Source: Thermococcus radiotolerans
Lineage (GTDB): Archaea > Methanobacteriota_B > Thermococci > Thermococcales > Thermococcaceae
Direction of reading: 5' to 3'
Assembly (NCBI RefSeq): GCF_002214565.1
Contig: NZ_CP015106.1
Span: 744,001-808,000, forward strand
DNA length: 64,000 nt
Part shown: positions 51,980 to 52,626 of the stretch, piece after piece
Layout: every line of letters begins with the position of its first letter
Numbering within the stretch: position 1 is the first letter of the stretch
Notes under the pieces: model-generated
Told to the model about the DNA's origin: nothing
The model's database searches: none
The model's input: only the letters and a program-made list of their open reading frames with translations
Position numbers and translations under genes: made by a program

Positions 51980-52057
51980 GGGGCCGTAGGGTAGCCTGGT
52001 CCATCCTGCGGGCTTTGGGAGCCCGTGACCCGGGTTCGAATCCCGGCGGCCCCACCA
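51980..52057 (+). tRNA. tRNA-Pro (TGG)
   Basis: 78 bases with encoded CCA. Acceptor GGGGCCG/CGGCCCC, anticodon loop TTTGGGA giving TGG, T-loop GTTCGAATC. TATA-like AAGCTTAATAAGG about 30-35 bases upstream. No intron. Confidence 0.95.
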
Positions 52058-52076
52058 GGAAACAAGCTTTTGCAGG

Positions 52077-52113
52077 GCAAAAATTTGATCAAAAGCTGGT
52101 GATTCTTTTTGAG
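52077..52113 (+). repeat. intergenic repeat copy B
   Basis: Near copy of 17012-17049, starting about 20 bases after tRNA-Pro: TTTGATCAAA, then GCTGGTGATTCTTTTTGAG. The copies diverge after this block. Confidence 0.7.
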
Positions 52114-52390
52114 TGGTCAGGTTCTTAGTGGGTTTTTGTTTTAGTGGTTGGATTGTACGTTGGATTCATCGCCAAAACGGCGCTTTTTAACAGGTTCAAC
52201 TTCAACCTGCGCTCCTCCGGAGCGCTAAAAAAGCCGAACCTATCGATGGTTGTCTTTTTTGGAATGAATCCGGCCAAAATTGCAGATTTCAACTGAAAAC
52301 CCCCGTTGCCTAGCGAATTCTAAGTAAGGAATCACGAACTTTGATGAAACTTTGTCCAGAAACTTTACGCAGGCAAAGTTCTGGGGGTGT

Positions 52391-52537
52391 GGGGGCGTTA
52401 GCCCCCCGGAGGATTAAGGAACAGAGGAAGGTGGGGAAACGTAGTTTCCCAGGTTTTTAGAGAAAAAGCGGGGTTGTGGGGTGGAACCCCACTCCAGGGG
52501 TTTGAAAGTACAGAGAGATAAGGGGGCGGAGCCCCCT
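52391..52537. repeat. array of four tri/tetraloop hairpins with ~43-base period
   Basis: Stems GGGGGC/GCCCCC (52391-52406), GGGAAAC/GTTTCCC (52434-52450), GTGGGGT/ACCCCAC (52476-52492) and AGGGGGC/GCCCCCT (52521-52537). Starts are 43, 42 and 45 bases apart, loops are 3-4 bases, stems 6-7 bp. Stem bases differ but pairing is kept. It directly follows the 3' end of tRNA-Thr on the minus strand. Confidence 0.65.
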
Positions 52538-52549
52538 TGTCTTTCGTTG

Positions 52550-52626
52550 TGGAGCCCCGGGCGGGGTTTGAACCCGCGACCTGCCGCTTACCAAGCGGCC
52601 GCTCCACCAGGCTGAGCCACCGGGGC
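52550..52626 (-). tRNA. tRNA-Thr (GGT)
   Basis: 77 bases with encoded CCA (complement of 52550-52552). Acceptor GCCCCGG/CCGGGGC, anticodon loop TTGGTAA giving GGT, T-loop GTTCAAACC. TATA AATTTATAAACG at about 52650-52661 on the minus strand. Confidence 0.94.

Follow-up and report, generated by a model that had tools for sequence, protein, structure and literature searches.

A hairpin array behind a Thermococcus tRNA-Thr gene is one copy of a palindromic repeat dispersed at stable-RNA gene 3' ends

Four hairpins lie between two convergent tRNA genes

The window analyzed here comprises 64,000 nucleotides of the Thermococcus radiotolerans genome. ARAGORN located two convergent tRNA genes, tRNA-Pro(TGG) and tRNA-Thr(GGT), and the DNA between them holds a structured element, here called module A, followed by an array of four hairpins (hp1 to hp4, Table 1). 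An earlier interpretation based on the letters of the window (hereafter, the sequence-only reading) had placed a hairpin array between these genes at 52391-52537, with stems of 6-7 bp and loops of 3-4 bases. The convergent neighbors, the loops and the stems of hp1-hp3 were as described, and the hairpins were found at that span. However, hp4 has 8 bp when started at 52520 (7 bp when begun at 52521), and the feature as a whole is longer, with its natural reading on the minus strand.

Table 1. Features between and including the two tRNA genes (positions in the window)
Feature	Position	Strand	Description or basis
tRNA-Pro(TGG), convergent neighbor	51980..52057	+	ARAGORN
Module A element	52062..52354	+	A-type motif downstream of tRNA-Pro, then a structured interior and, at the far end, an inverted A motif; own-genome and relative copies, fold
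A-type module conserved tail (CAAAGTTTCATCAAAGTT..GTGATTCC)	52326..52354	-	
First hairpin of the A-type 3' module after B	52356..52384	-	Sequence; order matches other copies
Repeat B, 164-bp four-hairpin form	52383..52546	-	CGAAAGAC (tRNA side) to CACACCCCC (distal border)
hp1	52391..52406	-	6-bp stem, loop of 4
hp2	52434..52450	-	7 bp, loop of 3; only in the long (~160 bp) form of B
hp3	52476..52492	-	7 bp, loop of 3; two covarying pairs between copies
hp4, tRNA-proximal hairpin	52520..52538	-	8 bp, loop of 3
3-nt spacer, CCA of tRNA-Thr to CGAAAGAC	52547..52549	-	Sequence
tRNA-Thr(GGT), 3' end bears this B copy	52550..52626	-	ARAGORN

All four hairpins are perfectly paired, with spacings of 43, 42 and 44 bases. 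None of 2,000 dinucleotide shuffles contained four such hairpins (mean of 0.21), which supported that the regular array is real, and when the window was cut into 710 overlapping tiles of 180 nt, three or more hairpins occurred in just two tiles, both over the array. Relative to shuffles, the folding z-scores of the array were -4.7 (plus strand) and -4.1 (minus strand) as RNA and -5.9 as DNA. The sequence-only reading had considered that the palindromes might be GC-rich sequence arisen by chance; both the shuffles and the dispersed copies presented below speak against this explanation, to which we give next to no credence.

In the Rfam search of the window, only tRNAs scored above the gathering threshold, and the array had no match. 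The array region also contained no direct-repeat family, in agreement with the earlier statement that it is not a CRISPR array. On the plus strand, two G.U pairs lengthen hp4 to 15 bp, the same positions being A.C mismatches on the tRNA strand. When the four hairpins were compared with each other, the unit-to-unit alignment scores were reached by 1.3-5.9% of shuffles, and the autocorrelation of the array peaked at lag 44, a value equaled by 29 of 1,000 shuffles. These scores are only suggestive of a derivation of the hairpins from a tandem repeat.

The array belongs to a dispersed repeat with constant borders

The 492 bases between the two tRNAs, used as query, gave 25 matches in the genome (1,868,990 bp, one contig), the query included. 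These matches sort into two modules, namely A (about 52062-52354) and the hairpin array, named repeat B. Of 61 genomes searched, 31 contained B-like DNA; these belong to the same genus as the present one, from which 37 genomes were included. Module A occurred in 35 of the 61, in that genus only. What the sequence-only reading chiefly missed is that the array belongs to a dispersed repeat whose copies are attached to stable-RNA genes at their 3' ends.

We have set the borders of B from 26 distinct copies, collected as those matching the distal-border pattern, and from the sequence beyond this border. The 26 two-border copies span CGAAAGAC to CACACCCCC, with both borders constant; these are not inverted copies of each other, and B has no terminal inverted repeat. 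At the present locus, B starts 3 nt past the tRNA-Thr CCA and is read in the direction leading away from this gene. Most copies are either ~120 bp long with three hairpins or ~160 bp long with four, and one copy is reduced to 33 bp and a single hairpin. The long form corresponds to the short form plus one additional hairpin unit of ~43 bp. The regular spacing of about 43 bases reported before is thus correct as a measurement, but is mostly the result of this inserted unit. Beyond the distal border, many copies continue with an A-type (AGAAACTTTGC...) or a C-type (CAGCCC...) hairpin.

Covariation was evaluated in an alignment of 25 rows, the 33-bp copy being omitted. Two pairs of hp3 changed on both sides (U-A to C-G in 4 copies and C-G to U-A in 11), and 99.4% of the hp3 alignment cells were paired. 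Since hp4 is invariant across copies, it yields no covariation evidence. The covariation of a third counted helix was set aside, as the aligner had matched hp2 in the long form with hp1 in the short form. The idea that stems differing while pairing is kept reflect selection on structure therefore stands for hp3 when copies are compared, but not in the form first proposed: stem differences within one copy do not qualify as covariation, given that its four hairpins resemble each other weakly at best.

B abuts gene 3' ends in a single orientation

Among the 45 tRNAs seen in the T. radiotolerans genome, five (Thr-GGT, Leu-CAA, Leu-TAG, Arg-CCG and Pro-CGG) bear B right after the CCA, reading away from the tRNA, and the five exact hp4 sites of this genome are all behind tRNAs. 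In 94 genomes of the family, the exact pattern of this tRNA-proximal hairpin gave 52 sites in 25 genomes (23 of 61 from the same genus and 2 of 7 from one other genus), with 0 sites for the reversed control. The orientation relative to the upstream flank was identical in all 52 sites.

Intact tRNAs with 14 different anticodons precede 31 of the 52 sites, the distance from the tRNA to AAGAC being 6 nt in 28 of them, 7 nt in two and 5 nt in one. Twelve sites lie behind the box C/D sRNA sR36, recognized by its 3' end motif and confirmed by Rfam in 6 of these 12 cases. At two other sites, B adjoins the stop codon of a presumably Cbf5-like gene; in the one analyzed with Pfam, TruB_C_2 and PUA domains were identified. 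Of the rest, one site is behind a truncated tRNA-Arg and six are at one conserved, unannotated non-coding site.

This strict orientation bears on the possibility that the array belongs to an independent non-coding RNA, made from the plus strand toward tRNA-Thr and ending at hp4. The 15-bp plus-strand pairing of hp4 would suit such an RNA, but the orientation is tied to the upstream gene, most copies of B border distally on an A/C hairpin and not on a common promoter, and an Rfam match is missing; we regard this RNA as distinctly improbable. For T. kodakarensis, part of a transcriptome report (PMC4247193) describes antisense transcripts to six tRNAs and one tRNA-Arg cotranscribed with an sRNA.

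Some sites deserve separate description. At the truncated tRNA-Arg (L041, 1501-1574 plus flank, G014:C3), B lies directly behind the 3' half of the gene, likely a relic of insertion or rearrangement. The unannotated site (L278, which is G000:C1 near 1014219, and L259, L263, L258 and L252) presents TATTTAAAAG, a short hairpin and TTTTTTGCAA, followed by an A, C or B module depending on the genome. At least one conserved unannotated site is thereby marked by B; it could encode a small RNA or lie upstream of a divergent gene. More loosely related proximal hairpins were found elsewhere, for example directly behind an HSP20 gene in two genomes (L047 and L048, with Pfam run on L047), where the B-like hairpin has a compensated stem. 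Distal B halves lacking the proximal hairpin were found between modules.

Orthologous sites differ in the presence of B and in module class

Filled and empty versions of the same site were found at three places. Behind sR36, B stands between the sRNA and the A hairpin in G012, G032 and G035, whereas in G000 (T. radiotolerans) the sRNA is followed directly by the A hairpin. The tRNA-His site is filled in G012 and empty in G000, G013 and G032. The unannotated site is filled in G012, G035, G096 and G082 and empty in G000, G001, G013, G032 and G007, the empty versions holding an A-type, a C-type or no module. Where present, B is located between the gene end and the A/C-type 3' hairpin, and the best explanation is that this A/C layer is older than B.

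Module exchange was counted in five genomes for which the flanks of all or nearly all tRNAs were available (45, 45, 44, 44 and 44 tRNAs seen, five tandem tRNAs being excluded in each); the partial G001 and G036 were left out. Of the 38 non-tandem anticodons represented in four or all five of the genomes, 16 had at least two of the classes A, B and C between species. Upstream homology was detected in 87 of the 94 ortholog pairs of different class, and downstream homology as well in 37 pairs, over 12 anticodons. Hence, at least these 37 pairs are local exchanges. Within the stretch compared, the other 57 pairs, which include nearly all those of G007, had no visible downstream homology, so larger rearrangements occur too.

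Such swaps could represent footprints of tRNA-using integrases of the pTN3 and pT26-2 kind, the trailers having been imported with integrated elements or swapped by tRNA-tRNA recombination. According to part of a published report (PMC5495485), tRNA genes are sites of recombination by Thermococcus integrases and end points of inversions, and the B copy behind the 3' half of tRNA-Arg would be compatible with this origin. However, B also adjoins sR36 and a protein gene, the plasmids and phages searched had no match, and synteny is intact around many swaps. We thus consider integrase footprints an unlikely source of B.

A role of B at the 3' end is plausible

Perfect hairpins of at least 6 bp within 48 nt after non-tandem tRNAs were counted in 26 of 40 cases in G000, 11 of 40 in G007, 21 of 39 in G012, 20 of 39 in G013 and 18 of 39 in G032. 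In the same genome order, the shuffle means were 3.0, 2.5, 3.0, 2.6 and 2.1, while 6, 2, 7, 6 and 5 hairpins were counted in a control region 350-398 nt downstream. T-runs of at least 5 within the first 160 nt occurred in 7 of 18 B trailers, near the background of 0.36 per 160 nt, and in 49 of 90 A trailers and 14 of 28 C trailers. For termination by B through a U-tract, T-runs showed no excess in its trailers.

These counts bear on the view that B and the A/C modules are host elements, selected as terminators or processing barriers of stable RNAs and homogenized by trailer recombination, a view that is compatible with mobility. The way in which B abuts tRNA genes, an sRNA gene and one protein gene, the excess of hairpins behind the tRNAs of T. 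radiotolerans and the hp3 covariation all agree with it, as does the lack of A/B/C hairpins at the four tRNAs of the 989-995 kb cluster. Against it, T-runs in B trailers are near background, many tRNAs have no module, and the long near-identity of B at unrelated genes looks copied rather than converged. We take host selection as a serious possibility, while leaning toward another account.

B resembles intrinsic terminators in having a GC hairpin immediately after the gene, but has no reliable T-run, several hairpins, and dispersed near-identical copies. Judging from its position, a function as 3'-end or insulating element would be plausible, because a run-on tRNA transcript would meet B. A terminator, an RNase-resistant RNA or a protein-binding array, as suggested by the sequence-only reading, are possible functions of the array.

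B probably behaves as a mobile palindromic repeat

B is dispersed, precisely placed and of one orientation, its orthologous sites are filled or empty, and modules are exchanged at orthologous tRNA genes. We favor, as probable, that the array is one copy of a non-coding palindromic element, found mainly in this genus, which behaves as mobile or formerly mobile and lies in one orientation at the junction between a gene 3' end and an older A/C module. B would be copied as a unit, and would target either the gene end or the base of the A/C hairpin. The tRNA transcript would then run on into B, which would become part of the 3' trailer and could act as a roadblock, in end formation or in insulation. 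As many tRNAs are without B, it is not essential.

No clear target-site duplication was detected, the two junctions often carrying AAC in inexact form. We found no transposase linked to B, and the plasmid and phage collections gave 0 matches at blastn sensitivity. With these results, the missing Y1 transposase, the lack of a terminal inverted repeat and the sites beyond tRNAs, we hold B to be a mobile palindromic repeat, probably aimed at the gene end or hairpin foot. Selection for a functional 3' element could, instead of targeting, account for the flush placement.

B is rated as a dispersed palindromic repeat, which is a known kind, placed at 3' ends with unusual strictness. In bacteria, palindromic repeats such as REP/BIME are dispersed intergenic hairpins in small arrays. 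The B palindromes are likewise dispersed and in small arrays, but have no Y1/RAYT association and are fixed to gene 3' ends in one orientation. The resemblance of short dispersed palindromes in arrays to REP/BIME might suggest a REP/RAYT or IS200/IS605-type element moved by Y1 transposase, the enzyme of these systems. This enzyme was found 0 times in the T. radiotolerans genome, and in 2 of the 25 B-bearing versus 23 of the 69 other genomes of the family, which makes its involvement very unlikely. Like MITEs, B is short, non-coding and dispersed, with filled and empty orthologous sites, and module A has inverted end motifs; unlike them, B lacks terminal inverted repeats, and a clear target duplication was not detected.

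Yin, Heckman and RajBhandary reportedly described, in 1981, conserved GC-rich palindromes flanking tRNA genes in Neurospora mitochondria. By analogy, these would share with B the location of GC-rich palindromes at tRNA gene borders (for B, the 31 tRNA 3' ends). They belong to a fungal organelle, whereas B is archaeal, longer and multi-hairpin, with fixed borders, one orientation and a location on the 3' side only. Together with the yeast mitochondrial GC clusters, they appear to be the nearest analogy to B. Part of PMC4478555 presents the latter (GC42) as mobile, palindromic, GC-rich, non-coding sequences that merge and shuffle under structural constraint. Unlike B, they are not tied to RNA 3' ends in that part of the report, and the likeness is one of description. 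Searching PMC titles and abstracts, we found no description of hairpin repeats at Thermococcus tRNA 3' ends.

The formation of 3' ends on archaeal stable RNAs is poorly understood. A repeat that is placed exactly at RNA 3' ends, always oriented the same way, and that is swapped among orthologous tRNA genes, bears on this process as well as on tRNA-gene inversion. Natural filled and empty pairs are suited to testing whether a 3' hairpin cap alters tRNA maturation. As described in part of PMC5495485, Thermococcales chromosomes invert at tRNA genes. More speculatively, and with more doubt than confidence on our side, Thermococcus might have selfish or domesticated elements that recognize stable-RNA 3' ends and insert without a known transposase, perhaps by an RNA-level or hairpin-recognizing route. 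The tRNA genes would thus carry stacked, interchangeable caps that differ between species.

A- and C-type 3' modules

Many tRNAs without B have, within ~12 nt, an A-type hairpin with the conserved tail or a C-type hairpin. Allowing up to 3 mismatches, the core of the A tail was found 23 times in the T. radiotolerans genome, while its reversed control gave 0 occurrences. Most of these cores are close to tRNAs or sR36, and many form pairs that face inward. Inverted end motifs are present in module A, and the interior between them (52150-52290) adopts a predicted multi-arm fold and has 92% identity to a paralog in the same genome and to G033. The fold z-score of the whole 52058-52370 stretch was -4.0.

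In an alignment of 55 of the 73 listed A-type motifs, judged by eye, the arms of the first hairpin (HP1) and of the tail seem to vary together (CAAAAG, CAAAG and CAAGG versions), and several A-type segments seem as if kept complementary. In L188, L102, L278 and G000 near 1829 kb (L014), extra hairpins of the GACGTCGAGCTTTGCTCGACGC and TGTTGAGACTTTCGTCTCAACA kinds are nested in the loops of A/C hairpins located downstream of tRNAs and of the unannotated site.
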